A DNA stretch of 43,545 nt, taken from the NCBI GenBank assembly GCA_028345055.1, contig JAOMCO010000009.1:1-43545 (forward strand). The letters are read 5' to 3'. This document shows, piece after piece, positions 4,184 through 13,123 of this stretch. The position numbers were made by a program, and so were the translations under genes. The notes beneath the pieces were generated by a model. It did no database searches, was not told the DNA's origin, and saw only the letters and a list, made by a program, of their open reading frames with translations. Origin of the DNA: Candidatus Thioglobus sp. (lineage in GTDB: Bacteria; Pseudomonadota; Gammaproteobacteria; PS1; Pseudothioglobaceae). How positions within the stretch are numbered: the stretch's first letter is position 1; every line of letters begins with the position of its first letter.

Positions 4184-4726
4184 ATGACAAAAAAGAAGGA
4201 ACAAAAAGCTCAAAAAGGTGGTACTAAAGAAGCTAAAGAAGAGCTAGAAGATAACTCTAAAATTGAAGATTTAGAATCTCAGCTAGAAGAAGCTCAGCAA
4301 TCTGCAAAAGATAATTGGGATAAATTATTGCGCTCTCAAGCTGAAATGGAAAATTTAAAAAGACGAACCACAAAAGACTTAGAAAATGCGCACAAATTTG
4401 CACTTGATGGCTTTGTAAAAGCCCTTCTAGAGGTTAATGACTCCTTAACAATGGGAATTAAGTCTGCTAAAGATGAAAAAGCTACTTTGGAAAATACAAC
4501 TGAAGGCCTTGAACTTACAATGAAGGTTTTCAACAGCACACTAGAGAAATTTGGTGTTGAGACTATCAACCCCATTGATGAAAAATTTAACCCTGACCTC
4601 CATGAAGCTGTCACGATGGTCCCGATGCCCGATAAAAAATCAAATACTGTCTTGGAAGTCATTCAAACTGGATTTACTCTTAACGGAAGGCTAGTAAGGC
4701 CAGCTCTGGTCATAGTTGTTCAGTAG
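4184..4726 (+). CDS. grpE: Nucleotide exchange factor GrpE
   Basis: GrpE is the dimeric ADP-release factor for the chaperone DnaK. This 180-residue protein starts with a Lys/Glu-rich segment. A long amphipathic coiled-coil helix follows (roughly residues 25-85, including [12 protein letters not shown]), and then the compact C-terminal beta domain. It ends in the family signature [18 protein letters not shown]. coli GrpE is 197 residues, so this copy is complete. No dnaK or dnaJ follows. As in E. coli, grpE stands alone, divergent from nadK-recN. The cupredoxin gene follows after 14 nt and may be read through. Confidence 0.98.
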
Positions 4727-4740
4727 AAATCAATAAATTA

Positions 4741-5160
4741 ATGAAATTATTAACTTTATTAGCTGTGCTGATAATTTCAGAAGTTACTCTGGCAGAAACT
4801 ATTCAAATTGAGTTTACTGAAGATGACTCTTACAGTATTGAAGTCGCCCACATCAATATCGGTGACAGAATAGATTGGCTACCAAAGAGTCAAGGGCACA
4901 ATGTAGAATTTCTAGCAGGTCCTAAAATGGATGAACTCCCCCCAAACTCAAAAATGAATCAATTTCACAGTGTTGTTTTTAGAGTGCCAGGAATTTATTT
5001 GTACGGATGCACTCCTCATCTTAATATGGGTATGCTAGGTTTAATCATTGTTGGCAATGATATTCATAATCTAGATCAAATCAAAAAAATAGAATTGTCC
5101 TACGTCGCAACCTCCGTTCTAGAAAGATTAAGCATCATTGCTCAGTCAGATTCAAAATAA
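4741..5160 (+). CDS. Pseudoazurin-like cupredoxin, periplasmic
   Basis: This 139-residue protein has a signal peptide (hydrophobic stretch, likely cut after TLA at residue 18) and one cupredoxin domain. The type 1 copper ligands are all visible: His53 (SQGHNVEF), Cys90, His93 and Met98 in CTPHLNMGM. The C-to-H-to-M spacing of +3 and +8 is the pseudoazurin pattern. Such proteins carry single electrons in the periplasm, for example to nitrite or nitrous oxide reductase or a cytochrome oxidase. No partner enzyme lies nearby, so the partner is unknown. The tail after residue 108 is longer than the core domain needs. It follows grpE by 14 nt with no strong ribosome site. Confidence 0.87.
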   Translation: MKLLTLLAVLIISEVTLAETIQIEFTEDDSYSIEVAHINIGDRIDWLPKSQGHNVEFLAGPKMDELPPNSKMNQFHSVVFRVPGIYLYGCTPHLNMGMLGLIIVGNDIHNLDQIKKIELSYVATSVLERLSIIAQSDSK

Positions 5161-5390
5161 TGCAAAAATTTATAAAAAATAAGGTTATTTATGTAAAAAA
5201 GTTTATTTTTTTCATTAAAATCATATAAAAATAGGCTATTTATGAAAAAAGTAGTCTTTTTTTAATAGTTTTTTGCATTTATTTAACTAAAATTCTCTAT
5301 TTTTAATAAAATTAATGTCTTTTTTATCAAAAAAATATATTATTTTGTGCTTTATAACACTTTTAGCTATTATTTAGTTCTTTTTTCTGC
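5161..5390. repeat. AT-rich gap with an imperfect tandem repeat
   Basis: No gene is visible here. Two copies of a roughly 38-nt unit lie at about 5174-5212 and 5227-5263. Both have the order AATA-GG-TATTTATG, an A-run, GT, then a run of T. They end in seven T's and might act as weak terminators for the upstream genes, but neither has a GC-rich stem. TGCAAAAA at 5161 is mirrored by TTTTTGCA ending at 5277. The base composition is so skewed that some of this may be chance. Confidence 0.4.
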
Positions 5391-5419
5391 TTGACAGTCA
5401 AGAATTAATACTTTATATT
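5391..5419 (+). promoter_or_regulatory. Near-consensus promoter of the oxidative catabolic operon
   Basis: The -35 box TTGACA (5391-5396) is perfect, the spacer is exactly 17 nt, and the -10 box is TATATT (5414-5419). Transcription should start near 5426, about 80 nt upstream of the hydrolase ATG. A consensus promoter ahead of an accessory catabolic operon suggests either strong constitutive use or control by a repressor or leader RNA. Confidence 0.8.
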
Positions 5420-5425
5420 TCACCA

Positions 5426-5505
5426 TGCTCAAGTCGGCAGGCAGTGAGAAAAAAAGGTGTGTGCCCTGTAGATTAATCTACTATCATTAAATACTGGGCT
5501 ACCTT
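5426..5505 (+). promoter_or_regulatory. Possibly structured 5' leader of the catabolic operon
   Basis: This leader is about 80 nt and has no other gene. CTCA (5428-5431) can pair with TGAG (5445-5448). The loop between them contains CAGGCA (5438-5443), which is complementary, with one bulged base, to TGCCCTG (5462-5468), so an H-type pseudoknot is possible. A perfect 14-bp palindrome GTAGATTAATCTAC follows at 5468-5481 and could be a hairpin or a DNA operator. No Shine-Dalgarno sequence precedes the ATG at 5506. A 21-codon ORF also starts at 5425, right at the predicted transcript end. I do not recognise a known riboswitch. Confidence 0.35.
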
Positions 5506-6333
5506 ATGGGCGACTTGAAAATCAATCAATTGGATCAATCAACTGGTCTTTATACAAAGAAAAATACTCATTACTCAATTTTTGGATCAGAAGGACCTTT
5601 CCTTATTTTTATTCATGGAGTTGGCTTGTGTGGAGACATTTGGGAGCCTCAAGTTCGATACTTTTCAGCAAATTATAGGGTAATTACTTATGACTTTCTT
5701 GGGCATGGTTTTAGTGCCTCTCACAGCAAAAGCCCCTCAATAGATGACTATGTGGAACAGCTGAATGAACTAGTAAACTCTAATGATATTTCTAGTTTTT
5801 CACTTGTTGGGCACTCTATGGGGGCAATTATCAGTGTCGCTTACAGCCTTAAATATTCTAATAAGATTAATGCTTTAATACCCTTAAATATTGTTTATAA
5901 CAGATCATCAAATGCCAAAGAAGAAGTCTTAGGGCGAGCAAACATGATTTTAAACTCAGGTGAAATAGGTAACATAGATCAAACAATAAGCAGGTGGTTT
6001 GCAAACAAAACAGACTCTGCTCACATTAAGAAAATAAATAGAGTTCGACAACTTTTATTAGATGCGCCTCCAAAAGGATATGGTGATGCTTATAAATTAT
6101 TCGCCGAATCTGACTCTATCTTCGAAAATATGCTTCATAACCTTGACTGCCCTGTACTATACTTGACAGGAAGTGATGATCCTAACTCTAATTCGAAAAT
6201 GTCACAAGAAATGGCGAGCAAAACTCCTAAAGGGTTGACAAAAAGTATCGATAATGAAGCCCATATGATGGCTTATATTGCCCCTGAAAAGGTGAATCCA
6301 ATAATTGAAGATTTTTTAAAAGAAAATGAATAA
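5506..6333 (+). CDS. Alpha/beta hydrolase of the oxidative module
   Basis: This 275-residue protein is a single-domain alpha/beta hydrolase with no signal peptide, so it is cytosolic. The oxyanion loop is HGVG (37-40) and the nucleophile is Ser104 in GHSMG. The likely acid is Asp224 or Asp225 in GSDDPN, and the histidine is His253 in EAHMM. The overall pattern resembles the 3-oxoadipate enol-lactonase (PcaD) and RutD type of C-C or C-O/C-N hydrolase. It is first in the operon and overlaps the flavin reductase by 8 nt. Placed with a monooxygenase, a dehydrogenase and a PcaC-like protein, it probably opens or hydrolyses an oxidised ring product. The substrate cannot be read from the sequence. 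Confidence 0.85.
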   Translation: MGDLKINQLDQSTGLYTKKNTHYSIFGSEGPFLIFIHGVGLCGDIWEPQVRYFSANYRVITYDFLGHGFSASHSKSPSIDDYVEQLNELVNSNDISSFSLVGHSMGAIISVAYSLKYSNKINALIPLNIVYNRSSNAKEEVLGRANMILNSGEIGNIDQTISRWFANKTDSAHIKKINRVRQLLLDAPPKGYGDAYKLFAESDSIFENMLHNLDCPVLYLTGSDDPNSNSKMSQEMASKTPKGLTKSIDNEAHMMAYIAPEKVNPIIEDFLKENE

Positions 6334-7273
6334 AGACAAATCAAGAAATTTAAGACAAGCTCTGGGCTCTTTCCCAACTGGAGTGACAGTAGTGTCTTGT
6401 CTTGATAAAAACGAAAATGCCTTAGGCTTTACAGCAAACTCATTTACTTCTGTTTCACTAGATCCTAAGCTTATTTCAATTTGCATTGACAAGGAGTCAT
6501 TTAATATAGACTCATTTTCAATCGCTAAGCATTTTGCTGTAAGTGTTCTATCAGAGGACCAACAATCTATTTCAACAACTTTTGCCATGCCTAATGAGGA
6601 TCGCTTTAAAAATATAGACTGGCGAGCTGAAGATACTGGAAGCCCAATTATAAGTGGCGCAGTCGCTTGGTTTGATTGTAATACTGAACAAATAGTTGAT
6701 GCAGGAGACCACCTTATTCTTATAGGAAAAATTATTGCTTTTGATAGCAGCCCCAAAACGCCACTGATGTACCTCAGAGGAAACTATGTTAATCTGGGTC
6801 TTGAACAAAAAATGTTGTTAGCAATGGAAAATGAAAATACAGAAATAATTGTTGGTGCGATAATTGAATGGCGTAAAAAAGTTTTTTTACTTAAAGATAA
6901 TAACAGCGATTCACTCTACTTTCCATCAGCCTCAAGGCTTGGTCACATTGATGACAATCAAAGCCTTCTGGGTGTGCTTAAAAATCTTAATCTATCAATC
7001 AATGAACATTATCTTTTTTCAGTATTTGAAAAAGCTGAAGATAAAACCAGTCTTATTTACTATCGCGCGCAAGCCAAAGAAGGTGCTGAAGACCTGGTCA
7101 ATTCGTTTTATGCTTTTGATGATATTCCATTTGACAAACTTAGTGATGATGCGAGTAGAATAATGCTTAAAAGATATATAAAAGAAAGGGAGTTAAATGC
7201 ATTTGGAATTTTCGTTGGCAAGGAAAGCGAAGGTAAGGTAGAGGCTCTCAGTAAAAATAATCAAAACACATAG
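6326..7273 (+). CDS. Flavin reductase with an extra C-terminal Nudix-like domain
   Basis: Residues 8-158 form a flavin-reductase domain of the HpaC/RutF type. Typical segments are LGSFPTGVTVVS, GFTANSFTSVSLDPKL and GDHLILIGKI. It should use NAD(P)H to make reduced FMN for the monooxygenase encoded next. Ordinary members stop near residue 160-170. This one runs to 315. Residues 173-297 (starting IIVGAIIEWRKKVFLLK) look like a Nudix fold: an opening beta strand, a YFPSASRLG turn and a late YAFDDIP strand. The catalytic Nudix box is not recognisable, so this half is probably a binding or regulatory domain. It overlaps the upstream hydrolase by 8 nt and sits 11 nt before the monooxygenase. The Nudix assignment is my inference. 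Confidence 0.82.
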   Translation: MNKDKSRNLRQALGSFPTGVTVVSCLDKNENALGFTANSFTSVSLDPKLISICIDKESFNIDSFSIAKHFAVSVLSEDQQSISTTFAMPNEDRFKNIDWRAEDTGSPIISGAVAWFDCNTEQIVDAGDHLILIGKIIAFDSSPKTPLMYLRGNYVNLGLEQKMLLAMENENTEIIVGAIIEWRKKVFLLKDNNSDSLYFPSASRLGHIDDNQSLLGVLKNLNLSINEHYLFSVFEKAEDKTSLIYYRAQAKEGAEDLVNSFYAFDDIPFDKLSDDASRIMLKRYIKERELNAFGIFVGKESEGKVEALSKNNQNT

Positions 7274-7284
7274 GAACTGTTAAT

Positions 7285-8322
7285 ATGGATTTTTCTTTAT
7301 TTGCTCACATGGAAAGAATAGACGAGGGGCAGTCGCAAAAAAGATTGTATGACGAGTTTGTTGAGCTCTGTCAAATAGCTGATCAGTCTGGCTTCAAAAC
7401 GATTTGGAATGGTGAGCATCATGGTATGAACTTTACCATTGCACCAAATCCTTTTGTCAATCTCACCGACCTGGCAAATAAAACAAAAAATGTTAGGCTT
7501 GGAACTGGGACAATCATTGCCCCCTTTTGGCATCCAATAAAACTTGCAGAAGAAGCAGCGATGACAGATATTATTTCAGGAGGAAGACTTGAGCTTGGTA
7601 TTGCAAGAGGTGCTTACTCTTTTGAATATGATCGACTAGCTGATGGAATGGATCCTTTTTCTGCTGGGAATGCATTAAGAGAAATTGTTCCAGCAATTAA
7701 AGCCCTATGGAGAGGTGACTATACTGGTGAAGGAGAGCATTGGTCCTTCCCTAAAACAACCAGCTCACCTAAACCTCAACAGTCTCCAAATCCTCCAATA
7801 TGGATTGCAGCTAGGGATCAAAATTCTCATGACTTTGCATTAAAAGAAGGCTGCAATGTTCAAGTAACGCCTCTATGGCTCGGAGATGATGAGGTTTCCT
7901 CGCTAATGGAAAAATTTAATATTGCATGCGATAAGCATAGTGACATTAAGCGACCTAAAATCATGGTTTTACGACACACCTTTGTTGCTGAGACAGAAGA
8001 GGAAGTTCTTCAAGGTGCTAAAGATATTTCGCGTTTTTATTGTTACTTTGGTGCTTGGTTTAAAAATGAACGTCCTGTTGAGCAAGGGTTGATGGAGAAA
8101 CTTTCAGATGAAGAAATGTCTAAACTAGAAATGTACTCTCCAGAAAATATGCTTAAAAATAGTATTATTGGTTCACCTGATGACGTTATTAAACGAATCA
8201 AGTTTTGTGAAGAACTTGGCTATGATGAATATAGTTATTGGATTGACAGCAGTATGGATTTTGAAACAAAAAAGAAATCACTAGAGCTTTTTATAGAAAA
8301 GGTTATGCCTGCATTTAATTAA
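7285..8322 (+). CDS. Luciferase-like (LLM class) flavin-dependent monooxygenase
   Basis: This 345-residue protein has the TIM-barrel bacterial-luciferase fold. It shows the N-terminal strand MDFSLFAHMER, the conserved EHH motif at 44-46 (His44 of LuxA is catalytic in this motif), the segment VRLGTGTIIAPFWHPIKLAEE and GGRLELGIARG. Family members use reduced FMN and O2 to insert oxygen into aldehydes, alkanes, ketones, sulfonates or N-heterocycles. The adjacent flavin reductase should supply the FMNH2. There is no LuxB partner or fatty-acid reductase, so bioluminescence is unlikely. The neighbouring dehydrogenase, hydrolase and PcaC-like genes suggest degradation of a cyclic organic compound. 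Confidence 0.9.
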   Translation: MDFSLFAHMERIDEGQSQKRLYDEFVELCQIADQSGFKTIWNGEHHGMNFTIAPNPFVNLTDLANKTKNVRLGTGTIIAPFWHPIKLAEEAAMTDIISGGRLELGIARGAYSFEYDRLADGMDPFSAGNALREIVPAIKALWRGDYTGEGEHWSFPKTTSSPKPQQSPNPPIWIAARDQNSHDFALKEGCNVQVTPLWLGDDEVSSLMEKFNIACDKHSDIKRPKIMVLRHTFVAETEEEVLQGAKDISRFYCYFGAWFKNERPVEQGLMEKLSDEEMSKLEMYSPENMLKNSIIGSPDDVIKRIKFCEELGYDEYSYWIDSSMDFETKKKSLELFIEKVMPAFN

Positions 8323-8330
8323 ATGGGTTA

Positions 8331-9803
8331 ATGATGAAACATTACAAACACTACATTAATGGAGAATTCACTGAAGGTTCAGAAAAATTTGAAACCTTAA
8401 ACCCTGCCAATGGTATCCCATGGGCAACCTTTCCTGCGGCTTCAGAGCAAGAGTCAAATTTAGCTATAGAGTCTGCTCACTCGGCTCTTTACAAGGGGGC
8501 TTGGTCAAAACTAACAGCAACACAAAGGGGTAAATTAATCCATAAGCTTGGTGATTTAATTGCTAAAAATGCTTCTGAACTTGGAGAGCTAGAAACACAG
8601 GATAGTGGCAAACTTGCAGTTGAGACAAGAGCCCAATCGAGCTATGTAGCAGACTATTACTATTACTATGCCGGCTTAGCAGATAAGATTCAGGGAGAAG
8701 TTCTGCCTATTGATAAGCCTAATATGCAGGTTTTCACAACTCGTGAACCTATTGGCGTTGTGGTTGCCATTGTGCCGTGGAATGCGCAGTTGTTTCTCTC
8801 CGCCACTAAAATTGCCCCTGCACTAGCGGCCGGCAATACAGTGGTTGTTAAGGCTTCTGAACAAGCCCCTGCAGCATTATTTAAATTTGCTGAATTGGTT
8901 GATGAATGCGGTTTTCCACCTGGAGTAATTAATGTCATTACTGGTTTTGCTGATCCGTGCGGAAAGACTCTCACTAAACACCCTAAGGTTGCGAGAATAG
9001 CCTTTACTGGGGGTACTGATGTTGCAAAACATATTGTAAGAAACAGCGCTGAAAACTTTGCTCATGTTAGCCTTGAACTAGGGGGCAAATCACCCATGAT
9101 AATATTTGAAGACTGTAATATTGATGGAGCTGTTAACGGCATTATTGCTGGTAACTTTGGAGCATCTGGACAGAGCTGTGTTGCTGGATCAAGGGTATTT
9201 ATTCATAGATCGATTCACTCTCAAATAATTAATCTTCTTAAGGAGCGCGCAAAAAACATAGTCGTTGGAGACCCTTTAGACAGTAAAACTCAAGTTGGGC
9301 CACTTGCCACTCTTCATCAAGTTGAAAGAGCTTCAAAGGTCATTAAGAGCTCAGTTAAACAGGGCGCCAATTTGGTTTTTGGGGGTAAACAGCCTAATCA
9401 GCTTAAAGAAGGGTGGTATTTTGAGCCCACCCTTTTAGACTGTCCAAACCAGGAATTTGATTGCGTAAAAACAGAGCTCTTTGCTCCTGTTATCAGTGTA
9501 ATTGCATTTGATACAGAAGAGGAGGCAATAGAAATGGCTAACGACTCTGACTATGGTCTAGGCTCTGGGGTCTTCACTGAAAACTTAGCTAGAGCTCATC
9601 GCGTCAGTGCCAAAATTCACTCAGGCATTGTTTGGATTAATACCTACAGAGCAATATCTCCGATATCGCCTTTTGGTGGCGTTAAGCAAAGTGGTGGAAG
9701 TCGAGAAGCAGGCATTGATGCAATTCATGAATATACCCGAACTAAAACAACGTGGATTAATACCTCTTCGGAGCCTATGAGCAATCCATTTATAATAAGG
9801 TAG
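8331..9803 (+). CDS. NAD(P)-dependent aldehyde dehydrogenase
   Basis: This 490-residue enzyme of the ALDH superfamily oxidises an aldehyde to the acid. Catalytic Glu249 (LELGGKSP) and Cys283 (GQSCVAG) are 34 residues apart, as in classical ALDHs. The cofactor segment VVAIVPWN and the FTGG turn (IAFTGGTD) are intact. The protein begins MMKHYKHYINGEF. A second ATG at 8334 is equally possible. It lies 8 nt after the monooxygenase and 33 nt before the PcaC-like gene. It is most similar in style to semialdehyde or betaine-aldehyde dehydrogenases. The substrate is probably an aldehyde made in the same pathway. Confidence 0.93.
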   Translation: MMKHYKHYINGEFTEGSEKFETLNPANGIPWATFPAASEQESNLAIESAHSALYKGAWSKLTATQRGKLIHKLGDLIAKNASELGELETQDSGKLAVETRAQSSYVADYYYYYAGLADKIQGEVLPIDKPNMQVFTTREPIGVVVAIVPWNAQLFLSATKIAPALAAGNTVVVKASEQAPAALFKFAELVDECGFPPGVINVITGFADPCGKTLTKHPKVARIAFTGGTDVAKHIVRNSAENFAHVSLELGGKSPMIIFEDCNIDGAVNGIIAGNFGASGQSCVAGSRVFIHRSIHSQIINLLKERAKNIVVGDPLDSKTQVGPLATLHQVERASKVIKSSVKQGANLVFGGKQPNQLKEGWYFEPTLLDCPNQEFDCVKTELFAPVISVIAFDTEEEAIEMANDSDYGLGSGVFTENLARAHRVSAKIHSGIVWINTYRAISPISPFGGVKQSGGSREAGIDAIHEYTRTKTTWINTSSEPMSNPFIIR

Positions 9804-9836
9804 TAATTTCTTAACAGGCTTGTAATGGAGTAGATT

Positions 9837-10217
9837 ATGGACAAAAAATTATTTGAACTTGGACTATCGAAAAGAAAGGCTACGCTTGGCAAAGAGTATG
9901 TTGAAAAAAACTTAGATGCTGCTGATGATTTCAATGAAGATTTTCAAAAACAAATGACCGAATGGTGTTGGGGTTTCGGCTGGGGTGATGAAACGATTGA
10001 TGCGAAAACAAGATCAATGATGAATCTCACTATGCTTGCAGCACTTGGAAAAATGGACGAATTTGAAGTTCACCTAAAAGGAGCATTAACTAATGGAGTA
10101 AGTATTAATGAAATAAAATCAATTCTTCATGTTATTGCAATCTATTGTGGGGTTCCTCAAGGCGTAGAGTGTTTTAAAGTTGCCAGAACTATTCTAGAAG
10201 AAGCTGGTGAACTCTAA
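9837..10217 (+). CDS. Carboxymuconolactone decarboxylase (PcaC-like) family protein
   Basis: This 126-residue all-helical protein keeps the pattern of 4-carboxymuconolactone decarboxylase, including YVEKNLDAADDF near the start, TEWCWGFGWG (41-50), the HLKGALTNGV helix (79-88) and AIYCGVPQG (101-109). The AhpD-type CxxC is absent, so it is not a thiol peroxidase. PcaC works in the beta-ketoadipate pathway, often beside or fused to the hydrolase PcaD, but no ring-cleavage dioxygenase is present here. A GGAG ribosome site precedes the ATG. It is the last gene of the module. Its stop codon interleaves with that of the convergent exporter gene. Confidence 0.88.
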   Translation: MDKKLFELGLSKRKATLGKEYVEKNLDAADDFNEDFQKQMTEWCWGFGWGDETIDAKTRSMMNLTMLAALGKMDEFEVHLKGALTNGVSINEIKSILHVIAIYCGVPQGVECFKVARTILEEAGEL

Positions 10218-11110
10218 CTTTTTATATTTCTGAGAGATTTTCTAGAGGTTGTAATAGCAACCCCACAAGAAATGAGAATAACCCCAGCTAGAGCGCTTAA
10301 ACCAATTGTCTCTCCAAATAAAATCCAGGCTTGAATAGCAACCAAAGGCGCAACTAAATAAAAATAACTACCAACGCTGGCAGAAGCGCCATGTTTTATC
10401 ATTGTCATTAGTAACAAAATTGCACCAATGGATAAAGCAAGCACTTGCCATGTCATTGCTAAAATAAAAGTACTGGACCAAATAACTTCACCATTTTCAA
10501 AAAATAAAACAATCACAATACACAAAATCGATGCACTAAAGTATTGAACACATGGACCGCTAAACAAATTCATATTACTGCAAAAGCGCTTCTGATAAAT
10601 CGTTCCAATAGAGATGGCAAATAAGGAGATAATGACAGCAAAAACTGCCCAAATGGGGAACCCATCAAACATTATCTGTCTAGTCAAATCTAGGCTATCA
10701 AACAAAACTAAGTATAAACCAACCAGCCCAATGATAAGCCCAAGCCATTGTTTCTTGGAGACCCGCTCTTTTAACAAAACTCCAGCCATAAGAGCCATTC
10801 CTAAGGGCTGGAGCCCAATAATCATAGCGCCTAATCCAGCTGGCATCCCCCACTTAAGGGCCTGAAAAACTCCTCCTAAATAGACCCCATGTATTAATGC
10901 ACCAGCAATCATCAGATGAAAAAAATCTTTTCTTGAATCTGGCCAAGGACTTTTCTTATAAATAATTATCACAAACAAAAATAAAAGTGTGATTACAAAA
11001 CGATATGACAGAAGAGTGAAGGGCTCAGCATATGGAAGTCCATACTTTGCTGCGATGAAACCTGTACTCCAAATCCAGACAAATATCCACGGTATAAATT
11101 TAGTATTCAT
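10214..11110 (-). CDS. EamA/DMT-family transporter
   Basis: This 298-residue integral membrane protein has about ten hydrophobic helices arranged as two EamA repeats, the usual size of drug/metabolite transporters (RhaT/YdcZ/RarD relatives). Typical segments are the N-terminal WIFVWIWSTGFIAAKYGLP and GAMIIGLQPLGMALMAG. Such proteins usually export amino acids, metabolites or toxic compounds. The substrate is unknown. AAGGA lies a few bases ahead of the ATG. It is transcribed toward the catabolic operon and overlaps its last gene by 4 nt, so it is a separate unit but could export a pathway product. Confidence 0.9.
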   Translation of the reverse strand: MNTKFIPWIFVWIWSTGFIAAKYGLPYAEPFTLLSYRFVITLLFLFVIIIYKKSPWPDSRKDFFHLMIAGALIHGVYLGGVFQALKWGMPAGLGAMIIGLQPLGMALMAGVLLKERVSKKQWLGLIIGLVGLYLVLFDSLDLTRQIMFDGFPIWAVFAVIISLFAISIGTIYQKRFCSNMNLFSGPCVQYFSASILCIVIVLFFENGEVIWSSTFILAMTWQVLALSIGAILLLMTMIKHGASASVGSYFYLVAPLVAIQAWILFGETIGLSALAGVILISCGVAITTSRKSLRNIKS

Positions 11111-11228
11111 TTGAATAGTCCTTTCGTGGCTTATTCACTTCTTTTGGTTTCATAGTGCCTCTCGGCGAAGTTAGCATTATTTAAACTAATTTTATAGATA
11201 AATCATGACTATTAAATAGAAACCCAAG

Positions 11229-11256
11229 TTGAGGGATATCATGATTAGACTATAAT
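11229..11256 (+). promoter_or_regulatory. Sigma-70 promoter of dsbD
   Basis: TTGAGG (11229-11234), a 16-nt spacer and a perfect TATAAT (11251-11256) predict a start near 11263, only about 20 nt before the dsbD ATG. The first transcribed bases form a small hairpin, CTATTG-ATT-CAATAG (11262-11276). No Shine-Dalgarno sequence precedes the ATG. Confidence 0.75.
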
Positions 11257-11284
11257 TAGCGCTATTGATTCAATAGTAAATTTT

Positions 11285-13123
11285 ATGAAACATTTTTGTC
11301 TTTTTAGTTTTTTAATTTTGCTGAATATTTTTTCTCAATCTTCAGCAGAAACACTCTCAGTTAGTACTGAACTTGAATCAGAAAATTCTGCTAATTCATC
11401 AGTCATATCACTTGAAAAAGAGTCTCAAAAGATTGGTCATCCCCTTCCAGTCAATGAGGCTTTTAAATTAAGTGCAATATTATTAAATAACAATGAAGTC
11501 TCTATTCGCTGGCTTGTTGAAGAAGACTATTATCTCTATAAGGATAAAATTGCTTTCTCTTTTGAAGAGTCCTCAATTGAAAACATAAATTTTCCTGTTG
11601 CAAAAATTAAGAATGATGAGTTTTTTGGTGAAGTTAGCGTTTATAACACCCCCTTAGAGATATTAATCGAGCTAAACAACAAGCAAAGAAGTTCTGTAAT
11701 AGTTACTATAGAGCACCAAGGCTGCTGGGAGGGCGGTGTTTGCTATCCACCACAGGCTGACAGGCTTGACGTTGACTTGGAAGGATCAAAAAAAACTCCC
11801 CTACCAAAAAATGAGCTAACAACTGATGACGAAATGAAAGTATCTGAGCAATTTCAACAAGGTGGATTGACATTGTTGATTGCTGCATTTTTAGCTGGCC
11901 TAGCTCTATCTTGGACACCCTGCGTCTACCCAATGGTGCCAATCTTATCGGGAATAATTATTGGTCAAAAGGAAACGCCTAGTAATTTTAATGCCGTCTT
12001 GATGTCAGTTACCTTTGTTCTCTCCATGTCACTAGCTTATGGATTAATTGGGGCCTCTGCAGGCTACTTTGGCGCTGGGATAAATATACAAGCTATCATG
12101 CAAACACCTTGGGTGCTTTTTGTATTTAGTATTATTTTTGTTCTGCTCGCACTATCGATGTTTGGACTATATGATATTCAGCTGCCGGTTGGGCTACAAA
12201 CTAAACTTACAAATATTAGCAACTCTCAGTCAGGAGGTAACTTTATAGGTGTAAGTATAATGGGCTTTTTGTCTGCTCTAATTGTTGGGCCCTGTGTTAC
12301 TCCATTTCTTGCAACAGCTTTAAGTTATGTCATAGCTGGTGGTAGCCCTTTAAAGGGTGGCCTGAGTCTGTTTGCTATGGGCATAGGAATGGGCGTTCCT
12401 CTGATCATAATTTGTGGCTGGGGGGTTAATACTCTTCCAAAGGCAGGCCCATGGATGGAAAATGTAAAGAAGGTTTTTGGCTTTGCAATGATTGCAGTAG
12501 CGCTCTATCTTTTAGATAGAATCTTATCCCCCTTATTATCATTAATTCTTTGGGCGCTCTTCTTTACGCTAGCTCCCATAATGCTTGGAATCTTTAAAAA
12601 TTTAAACAAATCATTAGGTTTGCTCGGTCTATTTTTTAAACTTTTTTCTCTAATATTTTTAATCTATGGTCTTATGCTATGGTCACTTGTTTTAAAAGGA
12701 GGTGGAGACATTCAGCAACCTCTAGACTCAATAATCTATGGCGATAAAATAGACTCATCAAATAATGCTGAATTTCAAATAATAAAAGATGAAGCTCAGC
12801 TTAGTTCATTGATATCAAAAACTAGCTCAAATGACAAGATACTTGTTCTTAAGTTTTATGCAGAGTGGTGCATTGCATGCAAAAAACTTGAGAGAGTGGT
12901 CTTTAAAGACTCAATAGTTAATGAGTCCCTCAAAGGATCAATGACTTATACTGTTGATGTAACAAAAAATACCCTACTTAATCAGTCTATTTTGTCAAGA
13001 TTCTCACTTGTTGGCCCACCAGCAATTTTATTTTTTAAGGATGGTAAAGAGGCAAGGTCTCATAGAATTATTGGCGAAGTAAGTTCAGAAGAACTTACAA
13101 GTCGCTTAAATAGTTTAAAGTAA
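11285..13123 (+). CDS. dsbD: Thiol:disulfide interchange protein DsbD
   Basis: DsbD moves electrons from cytosolic thioredoxin across the inner membrane to periplasmic thiol proteins such as DsbC and the cytochrome c maturation system. The 612-residue protein has a signal peptide (about residues 1-21) and three domains. The alpha domain has Cys147 and Cys153 in GCWEGGVCYPP. The eight-helix beta domain has Cys213 (TPCVYPMVP) and Cys337 (GPCVTPF). The gamma thioredoxin domain has Cys529 and Cys532 in WCIAC. All six redox cysteines are therefore present. It is somewhat longer than E. coli DsbD (565), mainly in the N-terminal region. It has its own promoter and stands alone. Confidence 0.97.
   Translation: MKHFCLFSFLILLNIFSQSSAETLSVSTELESENSANSSVISLEKESQKIGHPLPVNEAFKLSAILLNNNEVSIRWLVEEDYYLYKDKIAFSFEESSIENINFPVAKIKNDEFFGEVSVYNTPLEILIELNNKQRSSVIVTIEHQGCWEGGVCYPPQADRLDVDLEGSKKTPLPKNELTTDDEMKVSEQFQQGGLTLLIAAFLAGLALSWTPCVYPMVPILSGIIIGQKETPSNFNAVLMSVTFVLSMSLAYGLIGASAGYFGAGINIQAIMQTPWVLFVFSIIFVLLALSMFGLYDIQLPVGLQTKLTNISNSQSGGNFIGVSIMGFLSALIVGPCVTPFLATALSYVIAGGSPLKGGLSLFAMGIGMGVPLIIICGWGVNTLPKAGPWMENVKKVFGFAMIAVALYLLDRILSPLLSLILWALFFTLAPIMLGIFKNLNKSLGLLGLFFKLFSLIFLIYGLMLWSLVLKGGGDIQQPLDSIIYGDKIDSSNNAEFQIIKDEAQLSSLISKTSSNDKILVLKFYAEWCIACKKLERVVFKDSIVNESLKGSMTYTVDVTKNTLLNQSILSRFSLVGPPAILFFKDGKEARSHRIIGEVSSEELTSRLNSLK

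Follow-up and report, generated by a model that had tools for sequence, protein, structure and literature searches.

A tgn-type operon, likely for trigonelline, with a conserved leader as candidate RNA switch in Candidatus Thioglobus

Introduction

The trigonelline (N-methylnicotinate) degradation cluster (tgn) of Acinetobacter was reportedly described by Perchat et al. in 2018. The tgn region of Acinetobacter sp. PK01 contains genes for a GntR regulator, an amino-acid-synthesis-family protein (AAS) and a hydrolase, followed by tgnA, tgnB, tgnC, a permease, a hypothetical gene, a succinate-semialdehyde dehydrogenase (SSADH) gene and a gene of the PcaC-like/carboxymuconolactone-decarboxylase family (CMD), and its core order recurs in Phyllobacterium, Leisingera and Burkholderia multivorans. 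A module of five genes, encoding an alpha/beta hydrolase (ABH), a flavin reductase (FR), a luciferase-like monooxygenase (LLM), an aldehyde dehydrogenase (ALDH) and a CMD protein, is present in a 43,545-nt stretch of DNA from Candidatus Thioglobus sp. (contig JAOMCO010000009.1, assembly GCA_028345055.1), here called the window, to which coordinates refer unless another locus is named. The window genome (G000) is a 1.31 Mb assembly, 74% complete, of a marine group known mainly for its sulfur chemistry; genomes and loci are labelled G and L, respectively.

With a probability of about two in three, we consider this module to be a tgn-type trigonelline catabolic operon, whose expression would be set by a switch in the 38-nt leader that precedes it. 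A likely substrate, a betaine of plants and phytoplankton, would thereby be assigned to an operon whose LLM occurs in 25 of the 29 searched genomes of the genus.

Correspondence with the tgn cluster

An earlier note had described the locus as an oxidative degradation module with no named substrate. Its account of the genes was confirmed: the five open reading frames lie on the forward strand (Table 1; start codons are predictions), the intergenic gaps of -8, 11, 8 and 33 nt were reproduced exactly, and the families were upheld by Pfam (Abhydrolase_1, Flavin_Reduct, Bac_luciferase with 184 bits, Aldedh with 542 bits, and CMD). The reading was also right in kind, as a co-directional, FMNH2-dependent and probably ring-opening N-heterocycle pathway of a streamlined bacterium. 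The suggestion of an undescribed compound does not stand, as the genes correspond to those of the tgn cluster and trigonelline is a likely substrate. Judged from sequence comparison, the module is not an orphan pathway, four of its genes matching the tgn cluster gene for gene.

The LLM is 64.2% identical over 344 residues to the annotated tgnB of PK01 (tblastn, plasmid records), and the identity to the PK01 tgn region amounts to 64% for LLM, 55% for ALDH, 45% for CMD, 37% for FR (312 aa) and 36% for ABH. A search of G000 with the PK01 hydrolase, which we take to be the protein named TgnD, returned the window ABH with 162.8 bits (runner-up 36.7), and a search with PK01 tgnC returned the window ALDH with 608 bits (runner-up 312). 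The window FR matches the PDB entry 3rh7 over its full length, this being, among the matches listed, the sole PDB entry that covers nearly the whole reductase. The same entry is identical over 302 residues to the FR of a tgn-type cluster on S. meliloti pSymA, which has the ABH-FR-LLM-ALDH core in common with the window but, unlike the window operon, also carries GntR, AAS and SSADH genes.

Gene neighbourhoods were compared in 80 loci, the best of 574 confirmed relatives, which were split by their LLM into 25 window-type loci and 55 loci closer to PK01 (tgn-type). The order ABH-FR-LLM-ALDH was found in 18/25 window-type and 51/55 tgn-type loci, and because related genomes keep the gene order, the operon is no chance arrangement. 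The order of all five families, which the earlier note had proposed to look for, recurs in 16/25 window-type loci but in 0/55 tgn-type loci. A CMD gene is present anywhere in the stretch in 18/25 window-type and 8/55 tgn-type loci; the homologues near these eight, and near three further loci, are 66-73% identical to the window CMD. The two groups differ further in their GntR (0/25 vs 51/55), AAS (0/25 vs 52/55) and SSADH genes (0/25 vs 11/55 within the stretch). Among the seven window-type loci without the four-gene order, L028 and L040 have no more than 1118 and 533 nt of sequence ahead of the LLM, and the stretch of L043 stops just past the LLM, which ABH directly precedes. In the remaining four (L067, L080, L082 and L094) no FR or ALDH neighbour was detected; these are alphaproteobacterial LLMs with 64-65% identity, and a hydrolase follows the LLM in three of them.

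In a tree of 53 LLMs, hand-picked for spread from 149 rows and rooted on three chosen rows, the window clade and the tgn core are sisters (98/90 and 100/96 support), nested together in a wider set that shares the synteny (L136, L141). Considering alignment columns at least 95% invariant, 119 are identical in both clades and only five are invariant but different. The earlier note had regarded a monooxygenase inside a clade of known function, with the same neighbours, as telling against its own reading; the window LLM comes close to this situation, in that it shares the neighbours and stands beside the TgnB clade, not inside it. Further LLM cassettes with ABH, FR, ALDH and AAS were observed in L142, L145, L146, L147 and L148, with LLMs 37-54% identical to that of the window; FR and a permease were the only neighbours of the LLM detected in L143 and L144. 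The cassettes of L142-L148 probably represent sister ring-opening pathways for other substrates.

Shared with the Acinetobacter cluster are the LLM (by the tree), ALDH and ABH (by best match), FR (by its full-length match) and the gene order, and CMD and SSADH genes are also present in the PK01 region. The window operon differs in having no GntR, AAS or transporter gene within it, in an SSADH gene that lies elsewhere, in a CMD gene directly after ALDH, and in an RNA-like leader. A convergent EamA gene was detected in 13/25 window-type loci.

Several observations weigh against the assignment to tgn. ABH and FR are merely 36-37% identical to their PK01 counterparts, the LLM lineage is a sister to the tgn core and not within it, and GntR and AAS, the usual tgn neighbours, are missing from the operon, while CMD adjoins just 8/55 tgn-type loci. 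The best-match test in G000 covered ABH and ALDH, not FR and CMD, and the tgn names of PK01 are those of the record annotation. Perhaps GntR and AAS at the head of the cluster are usual in the tgn type, not defining. Within literature under CC licences, no publication linking trigonelline with thioglobus or SUP05 was found.

Conservation and distribution of the leader

The near-consensus promoter of the earlier note was borne out (Table 1), in a promoter scan that as a whole stands at chance level (20 promoter-like sites vs 20.6 expected from shuffles). Downstream of it lies the leader element, whose mean pairwise identity among 18 rows (the window and 17 relatives; L042, which is without the block, was set aside) is 95%; the corresponding values are 42% for the upstream flank, 47% for the stretch from leader to gene and 51% for the first 20 codons.

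A covariance model (R1) identified one strong copy of the leader in each of 23 of the 29 genus genomes. The LLM follows the leader at a distance of 1815-1847 nt in 23 of the 25 LLM-positive genomes; the contigs of the remaining two (G012, G018) end too soon, and the four LLM-negative genomes gave no strong match. In L043, apparently outside the genus, the leader (58.6 bits) precedes ABH and LLM genes, again behind TTGACA, and the LLM of this locus averages 69% identity with one LLM clade and 67% with the other. Scans of tgn-type loci did not reveal the leader, either by pattern over the collected loci or by R1 over 46 related loci, where all scores besides that of L043 were at most 14.3 bits; L042, L082 and L094, rescanned with filters off, gave at most 8.3 bits. 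Among 369 genomes of the class, searched with stricter filters, only G000 and one 24.4-bit match were returned, the latter with a per-genome E of 0.0078, for which about three would be expected by chance. Viral contigs gave no match. Nor is the leader in Rfam 15, which has no match with E<=1 over 4600-11300; over 5380-5560 there are four matches, all with E>=1.3 and far below the gathering scores.

Folding of the leader and complementarity to the translation start

The leader can form a helix P1 (CUCA/UGAG and GUC/GGC), the loop of which, GGCA, can pair with UGCC at the 3' end to give a pseudoknot (Table 1). In alignment A2 (16 rows, 15 of them distinct), every distinct row forms the P1 pairs. 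RNAfold returned P1 for window segment 5426-5505 and for L038, and the other four segments tried favour a GGCA/UGCC hairpin. With a custom pseudoknot score and shuffler, without loop penalties, the number of shuffles (out of 400) scoring as well was 0 for the window, 17 for L044, 15 for L038, 76 for L043 and 2 for L036.

The 5' strand of the leader, CUCAAGUC, was found by a duplex test to be complementary to a site at the first-gene start, GACUUGAR. The best complementary site is located at the first-gene start in each of the 21 rows tested, though weakly so in L038; for L029-L034 and L164, seven rows in all, the strongest site coincides instead with the GUG start codon, as GACUUGUG or GGCUUGUG. 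Because the site shifts yet keeps its complementarity and stays at the start, a function at the RNA level is argued. Duplex energies at 270 control start regions average -4.7 (sd 1.6), and those at 11 operon starts range from -6.0 to -12.7. Permuted leader 9-mers match the mean duplex energy of the operon starts in 17/1050 cases, and of nine other leader segments tried none pairs as well with these starts. In a pseudoknot-free RNAfold prediction of the window the start-site helix has a probability of 0.98, and the leader strand pairs downstream of nt 60 with a probability of at least 0.67 in 15/21 folds. On alignment A3 (13 rows of the 21; the eight with a site in another place are excluded) RNAalifold yields this helix unprompted, together with the GGCA/UGCC hairpin. 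In L038 a G-to-A change at leader position 6 is met by a U in the site, so that this position pairs in both alternative helices.

The leader as a proposed translational switch

We propose, from these sequence patterns, that the leader is a translational RNA switch. In the off state, its first eight nucleotides (CUCAAGUC) would be base-paired to GACUUGAR where the first gene begins, so that initiation would be blocked; switching on would mean that this strand folds back into P1, is locked there by the GGCA/UGCC pseudoknot and leaves the start free. The leader may act as a riboswitch that responds to trigonelline or a breakdown intermediate. Related tgn-type operons have a GntR regulator where the window lineage has the leader. 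A clear GntR orthologue was not found in G000 (27.7 bits, 22%), nor in the single-contig genomes G006 (26.4 bits) and G028 (no match), and the best matches in the other genus genomes tried are at most 36.4 bits, except for a GntR protein of G003 with 70 bits and 27% identity, which counts against the proposal. We infer the transcription start, predicted near 5426, the folding of the RNA in the cell, the switching and the ligand.

Several results speak against such a switch. The single-sequence folds have unremarkable z-scores (-0.54, -1.48, -0.30, +1.05, -0.63 and -1.18), the sole two-sided pair change is that of the P1 pair G6-C15 to A-U in L038 (28/500 shuffles), the off helix has no two-sided change on 13 rows, and an A-U pair of the pseudoknot is broken in L038 and L043. 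Covariation is nearly absent because the leader is so conserved. RNAalifold does not return P1 on the 13 rows, and pairing of the leader strand falls below 0.67 in L029, L031, L032, L034, L164 and L167. In the duplex test, at most 2 of 200 shuffles did as well in 11/21 rows, 7-21 in nine rows and 52 in L038, and as the rows are related (L168 stands for the window, and several others are closely related) these counts overstate independence. Control starts also reach strong energies: -7.5 in 14/270 (vs 9/11 operon starts) and -9.0 in 5/270 (vs 6/11), one of these five being the antisense of a leader. Finally, the operon genes of L042 are present without a leader.

In the alternative view, to which we give a little less than even odds, the leader is no ligand switch but an RNA that binds a protein, an RNA thermometer or, at the DNA level, an operator immediately following the promoter. 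This view is in line with the thin covariation and with single folds that are not unusually stable. A DNA operator, however, leaves unexplained the complementary site at the first-gene start in 21 rows, on the GUG in seven of them, and an RNA thermometer leaves unexplained the conserved AAAA and GGUGUGU outside P1.

A more specific version of the proposed switch, in which the leader is a new class of riboswitch for trigonelline or an intermediate that has replaced GntR, with CUCAAGUC swapping between hiding the start codon and forming the aptamer, is tentative and, to our judgement, rather unlikely. If true, the RNA would sense a pyridinium betaine or products of its breakdown, and would take over the role of a transcription factor in a small genome. 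The closest described RNAs are small riboswitches with an H-type pseudoknot, such as preQ1-I. The leader resembles them in being a short 5' leader with a hairpin loop that pairs with the 3' tail and an A-rich stretch, and differs from them in having no Rfam 15 match and in a 5' strand that would pair with the start-codon region about 80 nt away.

Table 1. Features of the operon and its leader in the window (starts of genes and the promoter as predicted).
Feature	Position	Strand	Basis
Promoter TTGACA-17-TATATT	5391..5419	+	11/12 consensus positions; both hexamers identical (100%) in 18 rows, spacer 58%
Conserved 38-nt leader element, candidate RNA switch	5428..5465	+	Between promoter and first gene
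Leader P1 pairs and pseudoknot	5428-5431/5445-5448 and 5433-5435/5440-5442; pseudoknot 5436-5439/5462-5465	+	Predicted
ABH, TgnD-like by analogy	5506..6333	+	Acinetobacter tgn-region hydrolase matches window ABH best in G000
Anti-leader site GACTTGA at translation start	5512..5518	+	Complementary to leader nt 2-8
FR, TgnA-like, C-terminal extension without Pfam match	6326..7273	+	Pfam Flavin_Reduct at residues 14-157; 315 aa
LLM, TgnB-like	7285..8322	+	Annotated PK01 tgnB, 64% identity; LLM tree
ALDH, TgnC-like	8331..9803	+	55% to PK01 tgnC; best-match test in G000
CMD, PcaC-like	9837..10217	+	Pfam CMD; 45% to CMD of PK01 tgn region

Substrate and the remainder of the pathway

Trigonelline is the likely substrate, and the best call because of homology and neighbours together. 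We infer the chemistry from the trigonelline pathway as generally described and from the PK01 annotation. By analogy with TgnAB, FR would supply FMNH2 with which the LLM would open the pyridinium ring, giving an N-formyl-N-methyl-enamine aldehyde or hydroxybutyrolactone; ALDH would oxidise the ring-opened aldehyde to a succinate derivative, from which ABH would free methylamine, formate and succinate semialdehyde. An SSADH encoded elsewhere would complete the use of succinate semialdehyde. The PcaC-like protein, to which the earlier note had given a lactone or decarboxylation step in a possible path for an undescribed compound, need not carry out a lactone step there, because a CMD gene also occurs in the tgn regions of PK01 and B. 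multivorans and near 8/55 tgn-type loci; it may speed a decarboxylation at the 2-formylsuccinate stage.

The SSADH of G000 (G000:C5:17784-19220) is 57% identical to that of the PK01 tgn region, and matches of 57-61% were found in 13/13 genus genomes tried (partial in G004), compared to only 31-32% in two family members without the LLM operon. Its neighbours were read from their open reading frames as genes for polyamine uptake and breakdown; given this setting, SSADH provides the last step but is not specific and no proof of the substrate. For the released methylamine, alpha subunits of the sarcosine-oxidase/N-methylglutamate-dehydrogenase (Mgd) type, scoring above the family cut-off in 4/5 genus genomes tried, could serve; the best one in G000 reaches 1111 bits, just below the cut-off of 1164. 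Genes of this type were also observed adjoining tgn-type clusters (L104 250-5407, L105 1-4851) and in L043 (2729-4271, from open reading frames), and they fit a use of released methylamine.

The main rival substrate, within the tgn architecture, is another N-alkyl pyridinium compound such as homarine (N-methylpicolinate), because it is far more abundant at sea; we consider this improbable, although it has points in its favour. The window LLM lineage is separate from the tgn core in the tree, genes of the sarcosine-oxidase/Mgd type occur in the genus, and a homarine pathway with Mgd has been reported (PMC13390433). On the other side, only five of the 124 columns invariant in both LLM clades differ, and at four of these (37, 39, 240 and 247) the outgroup clade B, with two rows, has the window-type residue. 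Moreover, in PMC8269262 the action of TgnA/TgnB on homarine was considered unlikely on steric grounds, and Ruegeria pomeroyi was described as growing more poorly on homarine than on trigonelline.

Candidates set aside and neighbouring genes

That the leader is a small coding sequence for a leader peptide is very improbable and was rejected: in the window one frame has an ATG ahead of the element, but in most rows neither ATG nor GTG occurs at that place, and a shared reading frame is broken by indels (the A-rich stretch varies by 1-2 bases in L036 and L037, and L043 has a one-base insertion). A repeated genomic element was likewise discarded, as G000 has a single copy and 23 genomes have one strong copy apiece, with further matches not exceeding 20.6 bits. 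Matches of the leader to plasmids (10 Borrelia records, 26/96 bases, E 0.8) were dismissed as AT-rich chance.

The earlier note was also right that the genes are not a rut system, and probably right that they are not a pyr system. The rut and pca systems comprise enzyme families related to those of the window, but all bit scores lie under the curated NCBIfam cut-offs: 72.9 for RutD (cut-off 238.5), 70.5 for RutF (254.75), 120.9 for PcaC (155.7) and 122.3 for PcaD (255.85).

An AAS gene is encoded elsewhere in the genome in 6/8 genus genomes tried (64-66% identical to the PK01 AAS in the five loci fetched), and was not found in the other two, G000 and G017. The stand-alone AAS genes of two same-genus genomes (L178 7197-7811; L179 7310-7924) have neighbours that were read as cupin, phytanoyl-CoA-dioxygenase-like, alanine racemase and D-amino-acid oxidase genes. 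Just upstream of the window operon lies a gene for a pseudoazurin-like copper protein (4741-5160), scoring 67.8 bits against a family cut-off of 109.85.

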